From the NCBI GenBank assembly GCA_003132905.1, contig PKZC01000203.1, positions 2,780 to 21,556 of the forward strand: a stretch of DNA of 18,777 nt. The letters run 5' to 3'. This document shows, one piece after another, positions 555-11,839 of the stretch (its first letter is position 1; each line of letters begins with the position of its first letter). Below the pieces are notes generated by a model. The model worked only from the letters and a program-made list of their open reading frames with translations, made no database searches and had not been told where the DNA came from. The DNA is from Bryobacterales bacterium (GTDB lineage: Bacteria; Acidobacteriota; Terriglobia; Bryobacterales; Bryobacteraceae). The position numbers and the translations under genes were made by a program.

Positions 555-2063
555 CTACGGCGCGGCGCATACGAAGTTCGCGGCCTCGTCGGTGCTGCCC
601 GATCCTTTATAGTGCGCCGTCTGTGGATACGGACACAACGGACGCGTGCGATCGATCGCGCCCTTGGTCTTATGCGCCGCCGGAATATGATCGGGCGCTT
701 TGTTCGATTCCACCCAAGTTGCCAGCGTGCCGATCTTGTCGAAATCGTCGGTGCCATCGCCGCCGCGGCAGTGGCCCATGCCCGGAACCATAAATAGCCG
801 GATGGAATTGGATGCCTTCACCCTCCCGCCCATGGCATCCTCGACGCTGGTGAAATAATTCACGCTGTTTTCAGGCGCGATGCCTGGGTCCGCCCAGCCG
901 TGATACATCAGAAGCTTTCCACCGTGGCTGAAAAATGGTTTGAGGTTGGGATCGATCGAATTCATGGTTGGTCCTATCACTTTGTCGGCGGTCGCAATGT
1001 CGCGCGCGGGATCGAACTTTAAGTAATCCCAGCTAGGATCTTTGAACACTAAGTATTGATAGGTCTCAGCCGCCAGAGCCATGGGCGTGGGCCCTGAAAG
1101 GGTGGCCCATCCGAGTTCGCTGCCGCGTTCCAGGCCAGGAAAAATCGACGCGCCGGGCCCGGCATAAATTTTGCGCGCCACTGCCACTTGCGCGGGGGTG
1201 AGACACGTCGGTGAGTCGCCTCCTTGACCAGGGCCCTTACAGTCCAGCGCTTGTGGATCGAAGTGGCAGCGGCGCGGATCTTCCAGCACGCCATCTTTCA
1301 CACCATCCAGCGCATCGCAAGCTTCGAGCACGGCTTTGTGGATGAGCTGATATTTCGCCGGCGGGATGTAGCCGTCGCTTTGGTTCGTAATCTCGGTGGT
1401 CCACACCTGCGCGCCTTGTAGATGCGTGGGATAATTCGCGGCTGCTCCCGCGACGATGCCGTCGTAATCGTTGGGATAGCGCTGCGCTTCGGCCAGCGCC
1501 TGCCGGCCGCCAGTGGAGCAACCGTTGAAGTACATTCGCGTTGGATTCTTGCCGTAATAGGACGCGACAATCGGCTTGGCCGCGAGCGTCATTTCATGCA
1601 CCGCGCGATAAGCGAAGTCGATCAGCTTTTCCGGATGTCCCACCACAAATACCGCTGTAGTCTCTGTGTGGCCGGTGTCGGTGCCGGCAACCGCCCAGCC
1701 TGCCGTGACAGCCGTGGCCAGATCGCGATATCCGATGCTTCCCGCCCACGCCCCATTGCCGACGGACTCCAGCTTCCCATTCCATCCCGTCGCCGGCATC
1801 CAAACTTCGATCTTGATGTCGGAATCGCTGGTCGGCTTCAGCGTGGCAGCCACGCGGCAAATGGCGGGAAGATTTCCGAAGTTCGGCGGCGGAACACCTG
1901 GAAATGCCTGTACCGCGTCGGCCGGCAATGTTAACTGTCCGGCGGCGACGGCCTGCGCCAAAGTGACGGTCGAGTGCGGCAGGGCCAGATTGGCCAAACT
2001 CTCACAGGTTGTGGCAGCGCCCAAAGGCCACGAAAGCGCGATCACAAACACGAGGTATCGCAT
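555..2063 (-). CDS. secreted tannase/feruloyl esterase family hydrolase (catalytically complete)
   Basis: This 502-residue protein has an N-terminal signal peptide (about residues 1-17, MRYLVFVIALSWPLGAA). The rest matches the tannase/feruloyl esterase alpha/beta-hydrolase family, whose members cut ester bonds in galloyl or hydroxycinnamoyl (plant polyphenol) conjugates outside the cytoplasm. The family's linked catalytic set is present: nucleophile Ser183 in GCSTGG preceded by Cys182, acid Asp392 in HGWADPG, and His431 followed by Cys432 in PGMGHCRGG. In the family the two Cys form a disulphide that holds Ser and His together. A lid-like insert with CLTPAQVAVARKIY (287-300) lies between them, and the end reads GSTDEAANFVC. 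It is divergent from the PQQ dehydrogenase with 79 bp between the starts. No clear Shine-Dalgarno site precedes the ATG. The substrate cannot be fixed from sequence. A paralogue lies at 4990-6510. Confidence 0.93.
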   Translation of the reverse strand: MRYLVFVIALSWPLGAATTCESLANLALPHSTVTLAQAVAAGQLTLPADAVQAFPGVPPPNFGNLPAICRVAATLKPTSDSDIKIEVWMPATGWNGKLESVGNGAWAGSIGYRDLATAVTAGWAVAGTDTGHTETTAVFVVGHPEKLIDFAYRAVHEMTLAAKPIVASYYGKNPTRMYFNGCSTGGRQALAEAQRYPNDYDGIVAGAAANYPTHLQGAQVWTTEITNQSDGYIPPAKYQLIHKAVLEACDALDGVKDGVLEDPRRCHFDPQALDCKGPGQGGDSPTCLTPAQVAVARKIYAGPGASIFPGLERGSELGWATLSGPTPMALAAETYQYLVFKDPSWDYLKFDPARDIATADKVIGPTMNSIDPNLKPFFSHGGKLLMYHGWADPGIAPENSVNYFTSVEDAMGGRVKASNSIRLFMVPGMGHCRGGDGTDDFDKIGTLATWVESNKAPDHIPAAHKTKGAIDRTRPLCPYPQTAHYKGSGSTDEAANFVCAAP

Positions 2064-2142
2064 ATATATCTGTCATATATTAGAACTGCCTTGCGGCCTG
2101 CATGCAACGTTCGATATGCTGTGGGATCGTAGAGGAATCACT
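2064..2142. promoter_or_regulatory. divergent control region between tannase and PQQ dehydrogenase genes
   Basis: All control of two oppositely oriented secreted-enzyme genes must sit in or near these 79 bases. The tannase-proximal side is AT-rich, with ATATAT arms around CTGTC (about 2064-2082). This could be a -10 region or an operator half-site pair, although ATATAT is self-palindromic and so weak evidence. On the PQQ side AGAGGA at 2131-2136 is a good ribosome binding site six bases before the ATG at 2143. I see no convincing -35/-10 pair. Confidence 0.35.
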
Positions 2143-3993
2143 ATGCAAACTCATTTCCGCCTGGTGGCGATCGCGACCGCGAGCTTGTCGCTTGTTCTGA
2201 CCGCTACTCAAGCGCAACCGCCGAGCCAGCCCGCGCGTTTTGCAGGAACCGAAACCGGATTCGCTGTATTCCAGACCAAGTGCATGGGTTGTCATGGCAA
2301 CCCAACGATGGCTGGTCGCGTACCCGATCCCGCGACGCTGCGGCAATTGTCACCCGAAAAAATTTATGAAGCGCTCACTACCGGGCCGATGAAGGTGCAA
2401 GGACAATCCCTGGCCGACGACCAGAAACGGATGCTCGCGGTCTTCATGAGCGGCCGGACGTTTGGCAGCGCCGAGCAGGGCGATGCGAAGAGCATGCCCA
2501 ACCATTGCGAAGCGAATCCCCCGAACGACTCCAAGAAACCGCAACCGGAATGGAATGGCTGGAGCCCCGATGTCACCAATTCGCGCTATCAGTCTGAAAA
2601 AGGCGCCGGACTCACGGCGGATCAAGTGCCGCATCTGAAGTTGAAGTGGGCCTTCGGTTATCCAACCGGCGTTTCGGCATTCGGGCAGCCGGCCGTCGCC
2701 TCAGGCCGCGTTTTTGTCGGCAGCGATATCGGCTATGTTTATTCGCTGGATGCGAAAACGGGTTGCATCTACTGGTCCTATCAAGCCAAGGGAAATGTGC
2801 GCGGCGGACCAAGCGTCGGCCCGGTGAAAGGCCATGGCGACACCAAGTACGCGGTCTTCTTCGGCGATGCGCATGCCAACGTTTATGCGGTGGACGCGCA
2901 GACCGGACAGGAACTGTGGACCAAGAAGGTGGACGATCACTTCGTGGCGCGCATCACGGCGTCGCCCAAGCTATATGAGGGAAACCTGTACGTCCCCGTA
3001 TCGTCGTCCGAAGAATTCGCAGCCGCGAATCTCGATTATCCATGCTGCACCTCGCGCGGAAGCGTAGTGAAGTTGAACGCCAGTACCGGCGAGCAGGCCT
3101 GGAAGACTTATGTTATTCCCGAAACGCCCAAACCCACACGTAAGAATTCGAAAGGCGTGCAGCAATACGCGCCGGCCGGAGCTTCGGTGTGGAATTCGCC
3201 CACCATCGACGAGAAGCGTCACGCCGTCTATTTCGGCACCGGCGATTCAGAGACCGAGCCCGCGGGCAAGATGTCAGATTCCGTGATGGCGGTGGATATG
3301 AAGAGCGGCAAGGTGCTCTGGTATTACCAGGCGCAGGCTGGCGATGCGTTCCTGGGTGGCTGCACTGGTCCCGAGAAAACCGACAATTGCCCCAGCGAGA
3401 ACGGTCCCGATCTGGATATCGGCAACTCTCCCGTCCTGCACTCGCTGCCGGGCGGCAAGAGCATCGTAGTGGCTGGAACAAAAGACGGCAAATTGTTCGC
3501 GCTCGATCCGGACAAGAAGGGCGCCGTGGTGTGGCAGACGAAACTGGTGGACAATCCCCCGGGAACTCCGTTGTTTCGCCTGAGTGGTACCGTCTGGGGA
3601 GGCGCTTTCGATGAGAAGGCCGCCTACTATGGCCAGACGGGAGGAGGCATCACCGCGATTCAATTGACCACCGGTGAGAAGCTCTGGCACAAACCGTTGG
3701 CCGAGCCGGGCCAGCACGTCAACAACGGCGCGGCTGCTACTGCGATGCAGGGTGTTGTGTTCATCGGAGGAACCGATGGCAAGCTACACGCGCTTGCATC
3801 AGCCGACGGCTCTGAGATCTGGTCGTATGCAACGGACCGCCCGTTTGACACCGTGAACAAGGTGGAAGCCAAGGGTGGATCCATCGCGTCCATTGGTCCA
3901 ACCATCGTGAACGGAATGTTGTTTATCGGATCGGGGTACGGGGTGATCGGTGGCCCTACCGGTAACGTGCTTCTGGCATTCGGCGTCGAATAG
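2143..3993 (+). CDS. secreted quinohaemoprotein: cytochrome c domain fused to PQQ beta-propeller dehydrogenase
   Basis: The reading frame is open much further upstream, but the ATG at 2143 is chosen because AGAGGA precedes it and it begins a signal peptide (residues 1-24, hydrophobic core LVAIATASLSLVLTATQAQ). The mature 616-residue precursor has an N-terminal cytochrome c domain with haem motif CMGCH at 47-51 and a possible axial Met near 83. An eight-bladed-type PQQ propeller follows, with repeats such as GYVYSLDAKTG, NVYAVDAQTGQELW, GKLFALDPDK and GKLHALASADGSEIW. A vicinal Cys301-Cys302 pair (DYPCCTSRGS) resembles the disulphide ring that lies on PQQ in quinoprotein alcohol dehydrogenases. 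The domain order resembles polyvinyl-alcohol dehydrogenase-type quinohaemoproteins. It probably oxidises an alcohol or polyol in the periplasm and passes electrons through its own haem. The substrate is unknown. The add-like gene starts 21 bp downstream. Confidence 0.88.
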   Translation: MQTHFRLVAIATASLSLVLTATQAQPPSQPARFAGTETGFAVFQTKCMGCHGNPTMAGRVPDPATLRQLSPEKIYEALTTGPMKVQGQSLADDQKRMLAVFMSGRTFGSAEQGDAKSMPNHCEANPPNDSKKPQPEWNGWSPDVTNSRYQSEKGAGLTADQVPHLKLKWAFGYPTGVSAFGQPAVASGRVFVGSDIGYVYSLDAKTGCIYWSYQAKGNVRGGPSVGPVKGHGDTKYAVFFGDAHANVYAVDAQTGQELWTKKVDDHFVARITASPKLYEGNLYVPVSSSEEFAAANLDYPCCTSRGSVVKLNASTGEQAWKTYVIPETPKPTRKNSKGVQQYAPAGASVWNSPTIDEKRHAVYFGTGDSETEPAGKMSDSVMAVDMKSGKVLWYYQAQAGDAFLGGCTGPEKTDNCPSENGPDLDIGNSPVLHSLPGGKSIVVAGTKDGKLFALDPDKKGAVVWQTKLVDNPPGTPLFRLSGTVWGGAFDEKAAYYGQTGGGITAIQLTTGEKLWHKPLAEPGQHVNNGAAATAMQGVVFIGGTDGKLHALASADGSEIWSYATDRPFDTVNKVEAKGGSIASIGPTIVNGMLFIGSGYGVIGGPTGNVLLAFGVE

Positions 3994-4014: not shown

Positions 4015-4989
4015 GTGAAGCAACTTCCCAAAGTCGAACTTCATCTGCATCTCGATTGCTCGTTGAGCTACGCCGCCGTGGCGCGGCTGGACGACTCTGT
4101 CTCGCTCGAAGAGTACCAGCGCGAGTTCATCGCTCCGCCGCGCTGCACCAATCTCGCGGATTTTCTAACCCGCGCACCGCGTGGCTTCAAACTGATGCAG
4201 GACGAAGCGGCACTGGCGCTGGTGGTGGAGGATCTATTCGAGCAACTGGCCGCCGACGGTGTGCTGTACTCTGAGATTCGCTTTGCGCCGCTGCTGCATC
4301 TCGAGCGTGGGCTAACACCTGAGCAAGTGGTGGCCGCTGTAGATCGCGCAACGGAATCCTGCATCCGGTCCAGCGGCATCCAAGCCCGGCTCATTCTGTG
4401 CACTCTCCGCCACTTTGATCGCGAGCAAGGCCTAGTGACCGCGAATCTGGTGCAGCAATTTCGAGGCAGCCGGGTAGCCGCGCTCGATATCGCGGGTGAC
4501 GAGGCCGGCTATCCGATCGACGCGCAGGTTCCGGCCTTTCGTTTCGCAATCGATCACGGCCTCGATCGCACTGCCCATGCCGGCGAAGCTCGTGGCCCGG
4601 ATAGTGTTTGGGAAACGCTGCGTGAATTTCAGCCATCCCGAATCGGGCACGGCGTCCGAAGCATTGAAGATCCCAACTTGATCGATCATCTGAAGCGCGA
4701 GCGCATTCATCTCGAGGTTTGTCCCACCAGCAACCTGCAGACCGGCATCTCGCGCGAGTTTGCGGAGCATGCAGTCGACGAGCTATATCGGGCGGGCGTT
4801 CCGCTGAGCATCAGCACCGATACGCGCACCATCACCAACATCACGTTGACGGAAGAATATCGCAATCTTCAGGAACATTTCGGTTGGACTTCGGCGGATC
4901 TGCTGGCTTGCAACCAGGCCGCGATCGATGCAGCTTTCATCGAAGAATCCATCAAGCGCGAATTGCGCGAACGGCTTGTCGCGGCCTAA
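4015..4989 (+). CDS. add: adenosine deaminase family protein
   Basis: This 324-residue cytoplasmic protein belongs to the metal-dependent adenosine/adenine deaminase family, whose members hydrolyse an exocyclic amine (adenosine to inosine in the classic case). The metal and catalytic residues are visible: His10 and His12 (ELHLHLD), His188 and Glu191 (AHAGEA), His212 (IGHGVRS) and Asp269 (STDT). HLEVCPTSN at 232-240 is also typical. Two departures from the classic enzyme stand out: HxHLDCS instead of HxHLDGS, and STDT instead of TDD/TDG at the metal Asp, so the residue after Asp269 is Thr. The subgroup reading PPRCTNLADF with a Cys in HLDCS is a recognised bacterial branch, so the first change is not damage. 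The start is a GTG at 4015 with only a weak upstream GGGA. The gene sits 21 bp after the PQQ gene and ends directly against the converging second tannase gene with no gap. Confidence 0.88.
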   Translation: MKQLPKVELHLHLDCSLSYAAVARLDDSVSLEEYQREFIAPPRCTNLADFLTRAPRGFKLMQDEAALALVVEDLFEQLAADGVLYSEIRFAPLLHLERGLTPEQVVAAVDRATESCIRSSGIQARLILCTLRHFDREQGLVTANLVQQFRGSRVAALDIAGDEAGYPIDAQVPAFRFAIDHGLDRTAHAGEARGPDSVWETLREFQPSRIGHGVRSIEDPNLIDHLKRERIHLEVCPTSNLQTGISREFAEHAVDELYRAGVPLSISTDTRTITNITLTEEYRNLQEHFGWTSADLLACNQAAIDAAFIEESIKRELRERLVAA

Positions 4990-6510
4990 CTAAGGCTTTT
5001 TGCAGACGAAATTCGCGGCATCGTCCGTACTGCCGCTGCCTTTGTAAGTCGCAATTTCCGGATACGCACACAACGGGCGCGTGCGAACTTCCTTGCCGTT
5101 CTCAATGCGCGAAGCAATCAGATTGGCCGGCGCTTGCTTCTGCTCCACCCATTGCTGCAGCGCAGGGAACAGATCGAAGTGGTCGGTCCCTTCACCGCCG
5201 CCGCAGTGCCCCACGCCCGGAAGCATGTACAGTCGCACGGCGCTCATTGCGGGTTTGGCCCCGATGGTCTTCAACACGTTGTTGTAGTAGTTCACCACTT
5301 CGAGCGGAGGCACGCCCGCGTCGTTCCAGCCGCCCCACAGCATCATCTTGCCGCCGCGAGCCACAAACTTCTTGATATCGGGATCGGCCGCGTTCACCGG
5401 CAGGTTTGCAGGTTTGTCCGCCAGTGCGACGTCCGAATCAAAATTGATCGGTCGCGTTTTATAATCCCAGGCGGGATCTTTGAACACGAAATACTTGAAG
5501 AAATCCGTCGCGATGAAAATGGGCGCATCGCCTGTGAGTTGTCCCCATCCAAGCTCGCTGCCAGGATACAGCGGCGAGTAAATCTGCTCGCCCGTGCGCG
5601 GATTCCTGGGGCCCGCGTAGAGCTTGCGCGCGGCCGCCACTTGCCCCCTTGTCAGGCAGCTATTGTTGTCCGGGCCTCTGCATTCGAGTAGAGTAGGATC
5701 GAACTTACAAGACGGCGGATTCTCGATCACTCCGTCTTTCACCCCGTCGTTGGCATCGCACGCGGCGAGCGCGGCTTGGTGAATGGCCGGAAATTTCGTC
5801 GGTGGAATAACGCTGTCGGCATCCTTATGCGTGGCCTGCCAGATCCACATTTGCGCGAAAGTGTGATGCGTCAGATGCGCCGCGAATCCGCCCACCACCA
5901 CGCCGTTATAGTCGTCTGGATATTTCTGCGCTTCCTTCAGCGCCCCGATGCTGCCGCCTCCGCATTCGTCCATGTAGGAAAATTTAGGCGCTCGGCCGTA
6001 GAACGCCGCGATAGCGGCTTTGGCTGTCACGGTCATCTCGTGTGCGGCGCGATCGCCGAAATCGACGATCTTCTCCGGATGCGAAAGAGCATAGCTGGAG
6101 CCGTTCTCGTGTCCGGTGTTTTCCGCCGCCGCCGCGAAACCGCCCTGCATGGCCGTGGCCAGTCCACCGTAACTCAGATTGCCGCCCAATCCGCCATTGC
6201 CGGTGCCGCGCAGTTTGCCGTTCCAGCCGGAGACCGGCATCCAGACTTCGATTTTGATTTCGGAATCGCTGGTGGGCGTCGCAGTGGCCGTGACGCGGCA
6301 AAACTCCGGAAGATTCTTGAAGTTCGGCCCCGTGGCGCCAGGGAACGGCGGTGAAGTTCCGGCCGGCAGCGTGAATTGGCCTGCCGCAACCGGCTGCGCC
6401 GACGTAACCGTCGTATGTGGAATCTTGATCGATTGCAGGCTTTCGCAAGTGGCAGCGGCCAAGACGAACCCGGCGAACAGAAATAACGCAGTGGCTCTTG
6501 GGATGATCAT
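4990..6510 (-). CDS. secreted tannase/feruloyl esterase family protein lacking the nucleophilic serine
   Basis: This 506-residue paralogue of the product of 555-2063 shares its layout: signal peptide (1-20, ATALFLFAGFVLAAA), TCESL, then the hydrolase domain, ending GSTDDAANFVC. Asp397 (GGWNDAG) and His435-Cys436 (PGVGHCGGG) are kept. At the nucleophile elbow the paralogue's GCSTGGRQAL aligns without gaps to ECGGGSIGAL. Cys183 is therefore kept but the Ser position is Gly184 (codon at 5959-5961, read on the minus strand), and the nearest Ser is Ser187. The reading frame is otherwise intact and the fold residues are preserved, so this looks like a maintained non-canonical or non-hydrolytic member rather than a decaying gene. 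It lies 16 bp downstream of the DoxX gene, probably in one transcript. Its 3' end abuts the adenosine deaminase gene. Confidence 0.9.
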   Translation of the reverse strand: MIIPRATALFLFAGFVLAAATCESLQSIKIPHTTVTSAQPVAAGQFTLPAGTSPPFPGATGPNFKNLPEFCRVTATATPTSDSEIKIEVWMPVSGWNGKLRGTGNGGLGGNLSYGGLATAMQGGFAAAAENTGHENGSSYALSHPEKIVDFGDRAAHEMTVTAKAAIAAFYGRAPKFSYMDECGGGSIGALKEAQKYPDDYNGVVVGGFAAHLTHHTFAQMWIWQATHKDADSVIPPTKFPAIHQAALAACDANDGVKDGVIENPPSCKFDPTLLECRGPDNNSCLTRGQVAAARKLYAGPRNPRTGEQIYSPLYPGSELGWGQLTGDAPIFIATDFFKYFVFKDPAWDYKTRPINFDSDVALADKPANLPVNAADPDIKKFVARGGKMMLWGGWNDAGVPPLEVVNYYNNVLKTIGAKPAMSAVRLYMLPGVGHCGGGEGTDHFDLFPALQQWVEQKQAPANLIASRIENGKEVRTRPLCAYPEIATYKGSGSTDDAANFVCKKP

Positions 6511-6526
6511 GCGCTGTACATTGTAT

Positions 6527-6964
6527 CTAGCCGGCGTGCCGGAAGAACTTCGCGTCCAAAGAAAAGCGATTATACGAGCGATTCATCAGCAGCAGATAGT
6601 AAGTGATCGCGTAGATCATCTGAACGCCAACCGTGTTCCAATCGCTCCGCATGGCCGTGCCGAAAACCAGAGCGGTGATTAAAAGTCCGCCCAGCACCAA
6701 GGCCCAGCGCGTCCACAGGCCGAGCGTCGTCAGCACGCCCAGCACCAGTTCGGCGAACGGCACCACAACCAGGAACGCGTGCACCATCCCCGCCGGCAGA
6801 GGAGTTTTCGCGAATTCCACAGCCGTAGTTGTTGCAAACGCATCGGCCCCAGGGCCGAAGATGCGCCCCGCACCATGCACCAAAATGTTGATGCCAAGCG
6901 TGAGGCGAAACACGGCGTAGGCGAGTTGTCGGTCGAGAGCGATGGAATTCGTTTTGGGTGTCAT
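6527..6964 (-). CDS. DoxX-family integral membrane protein
   Basis: The 145-residue protein starts at the ATG at 6964. The open frame extends further upstream to 7243, but that part is low-complexity, overlaps brnT on the other strand and has no family features. Four hydrophobic segments are visible, near 14-32, 61-81 (AFLVVVPFAELVLGVLTTLGL), 84-104 (LVLGGLLITALVF) and 112-127 (GVQMIYAITYYLLLM). The first contains the RLTLGINILVHGAGRI pattern typical of the DoxX/DoxD family. Family members sit in the cytoplasmic membrane and are linked to quinone-coupled redox or thiol chemistry, but the role of this one is unknown. It is the first gene of a two-gene unit with the Ser-less tannase, 16 bp downstream. 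It shares an 83-bp divergent region with brnT. Confidence 0.82.
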   Translation of the reverse strand: MTPKTNSIALDRQLAYAVFRLTLGINILVHGAGRIFGPGADAFATTTAVEFAKTPLPAGMVHAFLVVVPFAELVLGVLTTLGLWTRWALVLGGLLITALVFGTAMRSDWNTVGVQMIYAITYYLLLMNRSYNRFSLDAKFFRHAG

Positions 6965-7020
6965 GCGGTCTGATTCCGATGTTTCGCTAACGCGTGCAAG
7001 GGGTAACTCACCATTCCAGA

Positions 7021-7041
7021 AGTATACGATAGTTATATACT
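7021..7041. promoter_or_regulatory. probable brnTA operator and promoter (inverted repeat)
   Basis: AGTATA (7021-7026) and TATACT (7036-7041) are exact inverted repeats with a 9-base spacer, a layout suited to a ribbon-helix-helix antitoxin dimer pair. The right arm TATACT is itself a good -10 hexamer, and its end lies six bases before the brnT GTG at 7048. Transcription could therefore begin at or next to the start codon, giving a leaderless mRNA; no normally spaced ribosome binding site is present. I see no convincing -35. Binding by the antitoxin is inferred from known autoregulation in BrnTA systems. Confidence 0.5.
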
Positions 7042-7047
7042 GAAGGC

Positions 7048-7362
7048 GTGGCCACCAGAGATCCATTGGATGGGTGCGTCGGATTCGACTGGAACCAGGC
7101 CAACGCGCAAAAGAACTGGGAGCGGCATGCTGTAACGCCCGAAGAGGCGGAGGAGGTCTTCTTCCAGGAACCTCTCGTAGTTCGCAGCGACGTGCGGCAT
7201 GGCAAAGCGGAAAAACGTTATTACGCGCTGGGGCAGACGACATCGGGGCGACTTCTCTTTATAGCGTTCACGATCCGACGCAACCTGATCCGCGTTATCT
7301 CGTCAAGGGACATGAGTCGAAAGGAAGTGGAGGTCTACCGAAACCATGAAAGAAATTCCTAG
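7048..7362 (+). CDS. brnT: BrnT-family ribonuclease toxin
   Basis: The 104-residue protein has the BrnT pattern. VGFDWNQANAQKNWERHAVTPEEAEEVFF (about 11-39) matches the N-terminal F-x-W-D...K-x-x-x-N...KHGV/HAV...EEA signature. The core (RYYALGQTTSGRLLFIAFTIR) and the C-terminal IRVISSRDMSRKEVEVY follow the RelE-like fold of this family. Known BrnT proteins are small ribonucleases that stop translation and are neutralised by BrnA in a tight complex. The start is the GTG at 7048, which lacks a good Shine-Dalgarno site; an internal TTG at 7066 is a weaker option. The 3' end overlaps the antitoxin start by 17 bp, giving translational coupling. The order toxin then antitoxin is normal for brnTA. 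Confidence 0.9.
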   Translation: MATRDPLDGCVGFDWNQANAQKNWERHAVTPEEAEEVFFQEPLVVRSDVRHGKAEKRYYALGQTTSGRLLFIAFTIRRNLIRVISSRDMSRKEVEVYRNHERNS

Positions 7363-8148: not shown

Positions 8149-9057
8149 ATGATGTTGGCTTCAACTCCTATGCGAGATTTTGACGAGAACAACATCACGG
8201 CCGCGGTAATCGATCGCTACCAGAACACCCCCGATCCGCGGCTCAAGAAGATCATGACCAGCCTGGTGCAGCACCTGCACGATTTTGTGCGCGACGTCGA
8301 ACCAACCGAAGCCGAATGGGAACAGGCCATCGAATATCTCACGCGCACGGGCAAGCTGTGCACCGACAAGCGGCAGGAATTTATTCTGCTGTCCGACACG
8401 CTGGGTGTTTCCATGCTGGTGGACGCTATCAATCATCGATTTGCCAAAGGCACAACGGAGACCACGGTGAAGGGTCCGTTCTATGTACAGAATCCCCCGG
8501 AAGCGGCATTCGGCGCCGACATCCGCGGCGAAGCAAAAGGCGATCCGCTCTATATCGATGGCTCCATTCTTTCCGAAGACGGTAAGCCCGTGGCGAACGC
8601 GATCGTCGACGTGTGGCATTCCGATGCCGAGGGTTTCTACGACGTGCAATTACCGGAGCTGGAAGAACCCACGTTGCGCGCGCGCTTCCACAGCGATTCG
8701 CAGGGCCGCTTCCGCTTCTGGACCATCATGCCGAGGTATTATCCGATTCCATACGATGGCACGGTTGGCGACATGCTGAAGGCGACCGAGCGGCATCCTT
8801 ACCGCCCCGCGCACGTGCACTTCATGATCCTTGCCGAGGGACATGAGCCGCTTGTCACGCATCTCTTTGTTGATGGCGATCAATATCTGGATAGCGACGC
8901 CGTGTTTGCCGTGAAGAATTCGCTGATCCGCGATTTCACGCGCGAAGCGCCCGGCATTGCTCCGGATGGCAAAAAGGTCGACGTCCCGTGGCGCAAGCTG
9001 CATTCCGATTTCGTGTTGTCCAAAGTAGCAGTGAAGAAGACTGCGCCCGCGGCCTAG
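8149..9057 (+). CDS. intradiol ring-cleavage dioxygenase, probably hydroxyquinol 1,2-dioxygenase
   Basis: The 302-residue cytoplasmic non-haem Fe(III) enzyme opens a catechol-type ring between the two hydroxyls. The N-terminal helical dimerisation domain (TPDPRLKKIMTSLVQHLHDF, about 27-46; EAEWEQAIEYLTRTGKLCTDKRQEFILLSDTLGVSMLVDAI) is of the catechol/hydroxyquinol dioxygenase type. The Fe ligands are visible as Tyr164 (EGFYDVQ), Tyr198 (RYYPIPYDG), His222 and His224 (RPAHVHFMI). YPIPxDGxVGxML together with THLFVDGDQYLDSDAVFAVK is closest to hydroxyquinol 1,2-dioxygenases, which give maleylacetate, but catechol activity cannot be excluded. Starts at 8149, 8152 or 8170 are all possible; 8170 (MRDFDENN) is the most family-like. 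No maleylacetate reductase is visible nearby. The 3' end overlaps the converging gene by 4 bp. Confidence 0.9.
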   Translation: MMLASTPMRDFDENNITAAVIDRYQNTPDPRLKKIMTSLVQHLHDFVRDVEPTEAEWEQAIEYLTRTGKLCTDKRQEFILLSDTLGVSMLVDAINHRFAKGTTETTVKGPFYVQNPPEAAFGADIRGEAKGDPLYIDGSILSEDGKPVANAIVDVWHSDAEGFYDVQLPELEEPTLRARFHSDSQGRFRFWTIMPRYYPIPYDGTVGDMLKATERHPYRPAHVHFMILAEGHEPLVTHLFVDGDQYLDSDAVFAVKNSLIRDFTREAPGIAPDGKKVDVPWRKLHSDFVLSKVAVKKTAPAA

Positions 9058-10804: not shown

Positions 10805-11839
10805 CTACGAGACCCATTTGAGCAGCCGGATCACACCCATCTTCGCTGCCTTGCGATGCGCCGAAACATCCTGGCGCGATTCGATTTCGCGGCGGTTCTC
10901 GCTGTAGTATTGATAGGCCCGCCAAAGCATTTCTTCGTTCGTCATGGTAGGACGCCAGCCCAGGCGTTCCTTGATGCGCGATGTATCGAACAGAAAATCC
11001 TCGGCGATCATCTTATAGTGATAAGGCCCCAGCGGCGAAAGTTTAAGATGATACGCCAGCTTCATCGCGGCAAGCGCGGGCCCTCGCGGTAGCGTGGCCA
11101 CCTTCGCCTTGCTCTTGGAGTTGCGAATCACGTATTCGTAAACTTCGGCGATCGATTTCACGTCGTCCGAACCGATATTGAAGGTGTCGGAATGGGGGTA
11201 ATCCAAAGCTAAGATGCAGGCGTTCGCCAGGTCCTGCGCATAAATGAACTGATACCGGTTCCGGCCGCCGCCCACCGCCCACACCCGCCGTCCTTCATCG
11301 ATGAATTCGAAAAGAATCGAGAGCAGGCCCAGGCGTCCAAAATCAATGATGGTGGGACAGCGCAGCAGCACGGAATTGATATCGGGATACTCCTGAATAA
11401 TGCGCTCACCTTCGAGTTTGGAGCGGCCATACAGCTCCACGGGATTGGGTGGGTCGTCTTCTCGCACTGGCCTGCCCATAGCCTCGCCCCACAAACAATT
11501 CGACGACGTGAACACGTGCTGGTGAACGCCGTGCTTGCGCATCGCTTCCATCAGGTTGCGAGTTCCATCTACGTTGCTGCTCCACAACTCCTTGGGATCT
11601 TCGGAGCCGTGCGCCAGCATGGCCGCGCAATGCGCCACGCCGTCGATCTTGGCGCCCGCAAACACTTTGTCCAACGCCGCCCGATCCCGCAAATCGATCT
11701 GATGTTTCTGAAGATTCGGATGCTCATCGTGATCGGGAACAACGTCCACGCTGATACAGCGATCCCCGGATTCCAGAATCGCGCGCTTTAGAATCCCGCC
11801 GAAAAATCCGGCGCCTCCAGTAACCATGACTATTTTCAT
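10805..11839 (-). CDS. NAD-dependent epimerase/dehydratase (extended SDR family)
   Basis: The 344-residue protein begins with the dinucleotide-binding motif VTGGAGFFGG (6-15). Asp32 ends beta-2 (SVDVVPDHDE), so NAD is more likely than NADP. The catalytic centre appears as TSSNCLWGE (111-119) and Tyr137-x3-Lys141 (ELYGRSKLEGER). RYQFIYAQDLANACILAL and FNIGSDDVKSIAEVYEYV fit the substrate-binding part of nucleotide-sugar epimerases and dehydratases. The C-terminal tail ends SAHRKAAKMGVIRLLKWVS. The nucleotide sugar cannot be named. A ribosome site AGGA lies five bases before the ATG and overlaps the stop of the lipoprotein gene (6 bp gap), which points to coupled translation. Next to a GT-C protein it probably supplies or modifies a sugar for a surface glycan. 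Confidence 0.85.
   Translation of the reverse strand: MKIVMVTGGAGFFGGILKRAILESGDRCISVDVVPDHDEHPNLQKHQIDLRDRAALDKVFAGAKIDGVAHCAAMLAHGSEDPKELWSSNVDGTRNLMEAMRKHGVHQHVFTSSNCLWGEAMGRPVREDDPPNPVELYGRSKLEGERIIQEYPDINSVLLRCPTIIDFGRLGLLSILFEFIDEGRRVWAVGGGRNRYQFIYAQDLANACILALDYPHSDTFNIGSDDVKSIAEVYEYVIRNSKSKAKVATLPRGPALAAMKLAYHLKLSPLGPYHYKMIAEDFLFDTSRIKERLGWRPTMTNEEMLWRAYQYYSENRREIESRQDVSAHRKAAKMGVIRLLKWVS

Follow-up and report, generated by a model that had tools for sequence, protein, structure and literature searches.

In the standard serine esterases of the tannase family (PF07519), a CS-D-HC motif combines a nucleophilic Ser after the first Cys with an acid Asp and a His-Cys pair. The catalytic triad of FoFaeC is given as Ser201/His452/Asp412 (PMC5967792), and the catalytic Ser of the MHETase of Ideonella sakaiensis, also in PF07519, as Ser225 (PMC6461665, PMC7568301). 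Here we describe a branch of this family in which the nucleophile is replaced by Gly, starting from the protein P0001 encoded in an 18,777-nucleotide stretch of DNA from a Bryobacterales bacterium (contig PKZC01000203.1; hereafter the window). Where FoFaeC and AoFaeB have their catalytic Ser201 and Ser203, P0001 has Gly184, and the Gly that precedes the disulfide Cys in these esterases is a Glu in P0001, which also carries a lid helix with the pattern HxxxQxxxWxxxH. Ser225 of MHETase, for which the solved chains are longer, likewise has no counterpart in P0001. The loss of the nucleophile, coupled to remodelling of the lid and the elbow, is a robust feature of a whole clade within this known family, and a targeted search of the open-licence PubMed Central literature found no description of a Ser-less tannase clade.

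The window encodes two PF07519 proteins, each covering nearly the whole Pfam profile: P0001 (506 amino acids, 4990..6510, minus strand) and its Ser-type tannase/feruloyl esterase paralogue P0002 (555..2063, minus strand). P0001 matches PF07519 over residues 71-504 and the full length of the profile (1-490 of 490), with 329.2 bits against a gathering cut-off of 29.8 and a Pfam E-value of 6.1e-98, while an NCBIfam scan returned no family for either protein. The reading frame runs unbroken from 6510 to 4990 and opens with 20 signal-peptide-like residues (6451..6510, minus strand) ahead of Cys22; a hydrophobic 10-mer precedes Cys22 in 234 of the 238 fetched Gly-type sequences with at least 15 residues before it. 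The AlphaFold2 (AF2) model of P0001 (mean predicted local distance difference test score, pLDDT, 93.9) has the tannase-family fold with its lid domain, the best fold matches being FoFaeC, AoFaeB and MHETase. P0001 and its clade are probably exported tannase-fold proteins, judging from these sequence features.

At the nucleophile elbow, residues E182-C183-G184-G185-G186-S187 of P0001 align with G181-C182-S183-T184-G185-G186 of P0002, placing Gly184 (codon gga, 5959..5961, minus strand; equivalent to FoFaeC Ser201 and, by motif, MHETase Ser225) opposite Ser183 (codon 1515-1517); window positions 5950-5972 span P0001 residues 180 (in part) to 187. The remainder of the motif is present, as the triad acid Asp397 (5320..5322, minus strand) and the triad His and disulfide Cys, His435-Cys436 (5203..5208, minus strand). 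Translation and alignment thus agree with the original prediction, which had described a Gly in place of the catalytic Ser, with Cys183, Asp397, His435 and Cys436 kept, an intact frame and a signal peptide. Its statement that only the nucleophile was lost does not hold, since P0001 also differs from the Ser types at positions 182, 185, 187, 188, 208, 216, 220, 224 and 228.

For comparison, 395 unique near-full-length tannase-family sequences were assembled from three homologue searches (with P0001 and two divergent Gly members) and from genome loci. The nucleophile column contains Gly in 241, Ser in 153 and a gap in one (P0050, kept apart); Gly in this column defines the Gly group, so that 241/241 follows from the grouping, and as the set consists of top matches to Gly queries, the Gly/Ser ratio is no measure of how common either type is. 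Among the best 119 of 7014 P0001 homologues (E up to 1e-20; P0003-P0121), 118 have Gly, one has the one-residue gap (P0050) and none has Ser, and the identity of clade members to P0001 reaches down to 42% (matches over 506 columns). In trees from which the columns of the elbow, the lid signature and the His-Cys pair were masked out, the Gly rows fall on one side of a branch, comprising 29 of 115 rows (Shimodaira-Hasegawa-like approximate likelihood ratio test, SH-aLRT, 100), 38 of 118 rows (SH-aLRT 99) and 38 rows of a careful 74-row tree (ultrafast bootstrap 100, SH-aLRT 99, and 100% of 200 bootstrap trees). Midpoint rooting of the 118-row tree nests the Gly clade within the Ser family. Its sister is the Ser-type protein P0171, with an SH-aLRT of 90 in the 118-row tree and support of 99/96 in the careful tree. 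In the sampled set, the nucleophilic Ser was lost once, giving a monophyletic PF07519 branch, and the missing Ser first seen in a single protein is a clade feature.

The five organism-labelled Gly proteins (P0066, P0080, P0093, P0202 and P0222) are all from Acidobacteriota (Vicinamibacterales, Bryobacteraceae and an unclassified Acidobacteria bin). A DNA pattern search across the phylum matched 3 of 396 genomes, of which only the match in genome G001 is a Gly tannase gene, the other two loci lacking a tannase open reading frame (ORF); since clade members with a differently spelled elbow escape the pattern, this count is no census. A Gly profile (A2) matched 83 of 200 family genomes (E up to 1e-150), a figure that includes Ser types, which the profile also catches, and 30 of these matches were typed as loci. 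The Gly gene is under purifying selection and about as constrained as the Ser paralogue. The ratio of nonsynonymous to synonymous substitution rates (dN/dS) is 0.105 for the P0001 gene relative to its G001 counterpart (locus L146), and in the same comparison 0.082 for the Ser paralogue, 0.097 for a PQQ (pyrroloquinoline quinone)-cytochrome protein, 0.094 for an intradiol dioxygenase and 0.205 for DoxX, all approximate, given dS values of about 1 or more and the inclusion of some upstream sequence. This bears out the earlier view that the gene is maintained.

The most conserved new feature of the clade is a four-residue lid signature, H216-Q220-W/Y224-H228, encoded on the minus strand. It consists of His216 (5863..5865; His in 230 of the 241 Gly proteins and 2 of the 153 Ser types), Gln220 (5851..5853; Gln in 234), Trp224 (5839..5841; Trp in 211, Tyr in 30) and His228 (5827..5829; His in 237), the last lying directly after residues 213-226, which form a single helix in the AF2 model. 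The strings found in the Gly proteins are HQWH (208), HQYH (11), HHYH (7), LQYH (6), MQYH (5), HQWQ (2), HQYQ (1) and HQWN (1), so that the exact H-Q-W/Y-H signature is present in 219/241 Gly proteins vs 0/153 Ser types. Of the four HQWH letters, 83 Ser types match none, 56 one, 13 two, and a single protein, the sister P0171 (QQWH), three; none matches all four. In a site-rate analysis on a P0001-like subset (121 Gly and 133 Ser sequences), H216, Q220, H228 and E182 rank at percentiles 1, 1, 3 and 10 in the Gly clade, within roughly the slowest tenth of its sites, and W224 at percentile 15, and the same five sites at the 23rd to 67th percentile in the Ser types. As a separate observation, the Ser-type tannases of loci L068 (titled Candidatus Marinimicrobia) and L069 (uncultured bacterium) occur in tandem arrays of three, with four ORFs whose lid string, LQYH, partly resembles that of the Gly clade, from which they are distant in the tree.

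Aligned without gaps from the elbow, His216 corresponds to FoFaeC Leu233, three residues past Phe230, which is placed in the substrate pocket of a homology model (PMC5967792). In MHETase, Leu254 is described as packing against the ring of the substrate; position 257 is listed among the active-site positions of low conservation (PMC6461665, PMC7568301); the equivalence of His216 to position 257 was deduced from the equal spacing (Ser+29 and Ser+32), the printed alignments being to fungal feruloyl esterases. On account of the FoFaeC alignment, the MHETase spacing and the modelled helix, His216 very probably faces the pocket, with Gln220, Trp224 and His228 following approximately one turn apart. 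A metal site formed by His216, His228 and Glu182 was considered as a candidate and set aside, Glu182 being absent from 43/241 Gly proteins. Twelve residues along a helix extend over ∼18 Å, a distance that makes it unlikely for His216 and His228 to share a metal.

The elbow has been rebuilt around the missing Ser. Glu182 (5965..5967, minus strand), two residues before the nucleophile position, is typical of the clade (Glu 198, Gly 26, Gln 13, others 4, with one Asp among the 43 non-Glu residues), while column 185 is Gly in 229/241 and Gly208 is present in 236 Gly proteins and no Ser type. Within residues 182-190, Glu182 is the sole conserved new side chain, the common Cys183 (164/241) being the disulfide Cys. 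Positions 183 and 436 are both Cys in 164/241 and neither is Cys in the other 77 (GG 68, SG 7, SQ 2); since one Cys never occurs alone, the disulfide appears to have been lost as a unit, and the AF2 model of a disulfide-less member has a pLDDT of 92.5. A subgroup of the clade has an elbow one residue longer (ECGGGGSRDA); among its members are P0237, P0240, P0247 and P0258, four proteins with Glu rather than Asp as their triad acid.

The catalytic dyad has largely been retained. The triad acid is Asp or Glu in 240/241 Gly proteins (Asp 236, Glu 4, Asn 1) and the His position is His in 235 (Met 5, Glu 1), down to 42% identity, and both residues are kept in 153/153 Ser types. The oxyanion-hole column 107 contains Gly in 165 Gly proteins, another residue in 74 and a gap in two.

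We tentatively read P0001 as a neofunctionalized exported tannase-fold protein that has left the acyl-serine route and uses His435-Asp397 for non-covalent action beneath a remodelled lid, a reading to which we give somewhat less than even probability. That the Gly clade carries out chemistry different from that implied by its database name is probable from its residues. The usual acyl-serine intermediate presumably could not form, because the Ser is gone and S225A MHETase is reported to be inactive (PMC7568301). Instead, a polyphenol-like aromatic ligand would be held by the new lid, and His435, polarized by Asp397, would act as the general base toward either a hydroxyl group of the substrate or a small molecule, water or O2, occupying the space vacated by the Ser side chain beside the oxyanion hole. 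Such a site would match the kept Asp/Glu-His dyad, the oxyanion-hole Gly of about two thirds of the members, and the rebuilt elbow (E182, GGG) and lid helix over the active site. Non-covalent dyad catalysis is favoured because an inactive relative should tend to shed its dyad, and the clade has almost never done so while fixing new lid residues.

Several points weigh against this reading. The inactivity of S225A MHETase is itself one of them. Six Gly members (P0054, P0056, P0058, P0060, P0067 and P0059) lack His435, replaced by Met in five and by Glu in one that also has Asn in place of Asp397, and as they retain the lid signature, the dyad seems dispensable in some lineages. In the site-rate ranking, the acid and the His are the slowest sites of all in the Ser types (percentile 0), against percentiles 9 and 10 for the Gly sequences, and the constraint on the dyad may therefore have eased slightly. 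Column 107 is non-Gly in 76/241 Gly proteins vs 27/153 Ser types.

It is also quite possible, if somewhat less probable, that the clade consists of pseudoenzymes, i.e. exported non-catalytic ligand-binding or scaffold proteins (for instance binders of polyphenols or lignin fragments) that work beside Ser paralogues and in which the dyad is structural or touches the ligand. Because the six His-less lineages keep the protein without the dyad, this comes close behind non-covalent catalysis, and it fits the absence of the nucleophile throughout and a lid that is the most conserved novelty. Seven distinct Gly genes were located in genomes or the window (the window, G001-G004, G180 and G151), and a Ser-type tannase lies within the stretch covered for five of them (window, L001-L004), these five representing two groups of close relatives. 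Neuroligins offer an example of the α/β-hydrolase fold used for binding. Retention of the acid and the His across the clade, with changes of the acid mostly to Glu, and of the oxyanion-hole Gly in 165/241 argue the other way. The simple pseudo-esterase or scaffold initially proposed is weakened, since the dyad has barely drifted and a new lid signature arose, and from that proposal a binding role survives through the members without His435.

Direct general-base ester hydrolysis, in which His435-Asp397 would activate water in the Ser-less elbow of a slower or narrower hydrolase, overlaps with the non-covalent action favoured above but differs in the reaction, and we consider it unlikely. Retention of the dyad, of the family fold and of most oxyanion-hole residues would suit it, as would neighbouring genes that form a polyphenol/aromatic block; on the other hand, discarding a working nucleophile would bring no obvious gain to plain ester hydrolysis, and the S225A variant of MHETase speaks against it. 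A new nucleophile in the elbow is very improbable. P0001 does have Ser187 (5950..5952, minus strand), one of the replacements suggested earlier, and Ser or Thr occupies this position in 152/241 and Glu182, whose carboxylate might serve, in 198/241; however, position 187 is unconserved (T 83, S 69, G 56, A 33), with Gly or Ala in 89/241, column 185 is Ser or Thr in only 6 and column 186 Ser in 16, 43/241 lack Glu182, and columns 182-190 of the 241 Gly proteins contain no conserved Ser, Thr or Asp, so that Ser187 was rejected as nucleophile. A sequencing error, pseudogene or misalignment, for which nothing speaks beyond the observation in a single window, is refuted for practical purposes by the existence of the clade, with Gly recurring in 241 unique sequences taken from a number of sources, a dN/dS of 0.105, an indel-free P0001 elbow and a gene order kept with G001.

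The gene order common to the window and G001 is Ser tannase, PQQ-cytochrome c protein, Gly tannase, DoxX and intradiol dioxygenase. In the window, the cytochrome c and PQQ-type β-propeller protein (1666..3993, plus strand) has its counterpart in G001, the DoxX-family protein (6527..7243, minus strand) belongs to the same gene block, and both ORFs are probably over-long at the start; the intradiol ring-cleavage dioxygenase (catechol 1,2-type; 8149..9057, plus strand) scores below the NCBIfam equivalog cut-offs and also has a counterpart in G001. An aromatic or polyphenol context for the Gly tannase is only suggested by these genes. In loci L002, L003 and L004, a co-oriented Ser-type gene comes immediately after the Gly gene, and in L144 (14 kb) and L145 (5.8 kb) the Gly gene occurs in stretches that contain no Ser-type tannase. 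L002 additionally encodes a metallo-β-lactamase-fold protein (19673-21385; PF00753, with a below-cut-off match to quinoprotein relay metallohydrolases), after a Ser-type tannase and a large outer-membrane β-barrel protein; L003 and L004 have look-alike ORFs in the same order, the domain scan covering L002. Also in the window, an adenosine deaminase gene (4015-4989, plus strand; TIGR01430 above cut-off) converges on the Gly tannase gene, with the two stop codons side by side, and is missing at the syntenic G001 locus. Directly past DoxX is a BrnT-type toxin gene (PF04365; 7048-7362, plus strand), which probably supplies the toxin of a BrnT/BrnA toxin-antitoxin pair, and farther along are an epimerase-family gene (10805-11839) and a gene for a protein with a GH79 C-terminal β domain (PF16862; 12230-13813, plus strand). 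Scanning the window for Rfam families and tRNA genes gave no matches.

At least 241 proteins, many of them labelled feruloyl esterase or tannase at source, lack the residue that defines this reaction, and soil-genome counts of polyphenol-ester hydrolases hence include proteins probably unable to work in that way. The clade provides a test case for a fold changing its job, with a single nucleophile loss, a Ser sister having three of the four lid residues, a mostly kept dyad, and a disulfide lost pairwise in some lineages. Neuroligins, cholinesterase-like adhesion proteins of the α/β-hydrolase fold in which the nucleophilic Ser is replaced by Gly, are eukaryotic synaptic binders, while P0001 is bacterial, predicted to be exported and holds its His-acid dyad; the likeness is one of fold and elbow residue. 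The cofactor-free α/β-hydrolase-fold dioxygenases HOD, which is reported to deprotonate its quinolone substrate (1-H-3-hydroxy-4-oxoquinaldine) with a His-Asp pair, and AqdC, whose native elbow residue is Ala (PMC10548524, PMC3961685), perform chemistry on this fold without a nucleophile and share with the Gly clade a His-acid pair (DH or EH in 235/241) and a dispensable or replaced elbow nucleophile. This likeness is one of layout and not of membership, P0001 belonging to PF07519 and being compared to HOD/AqdC by description rather than sequence, and the chemistry suggested for the Gly clade would be an analogy to it. A bolder version, for which we see a small chance, is that a secreted Acidobacteria tannase-fold lineage changed from a serine esterase to an enzyme that works on soil polyphenols with its His-Asp pair and no cofactor, as an oxygenase, a decarboxylase or a catalyst of other C-C-bond chemistry, its lid partly remodelled before the Ser was lost. 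If so, the clade would represent an independent switch of the hydrolase-to-oxygenase type like that of HOD/AqdC, with P0171 as a surviving Ser-type intermediate.
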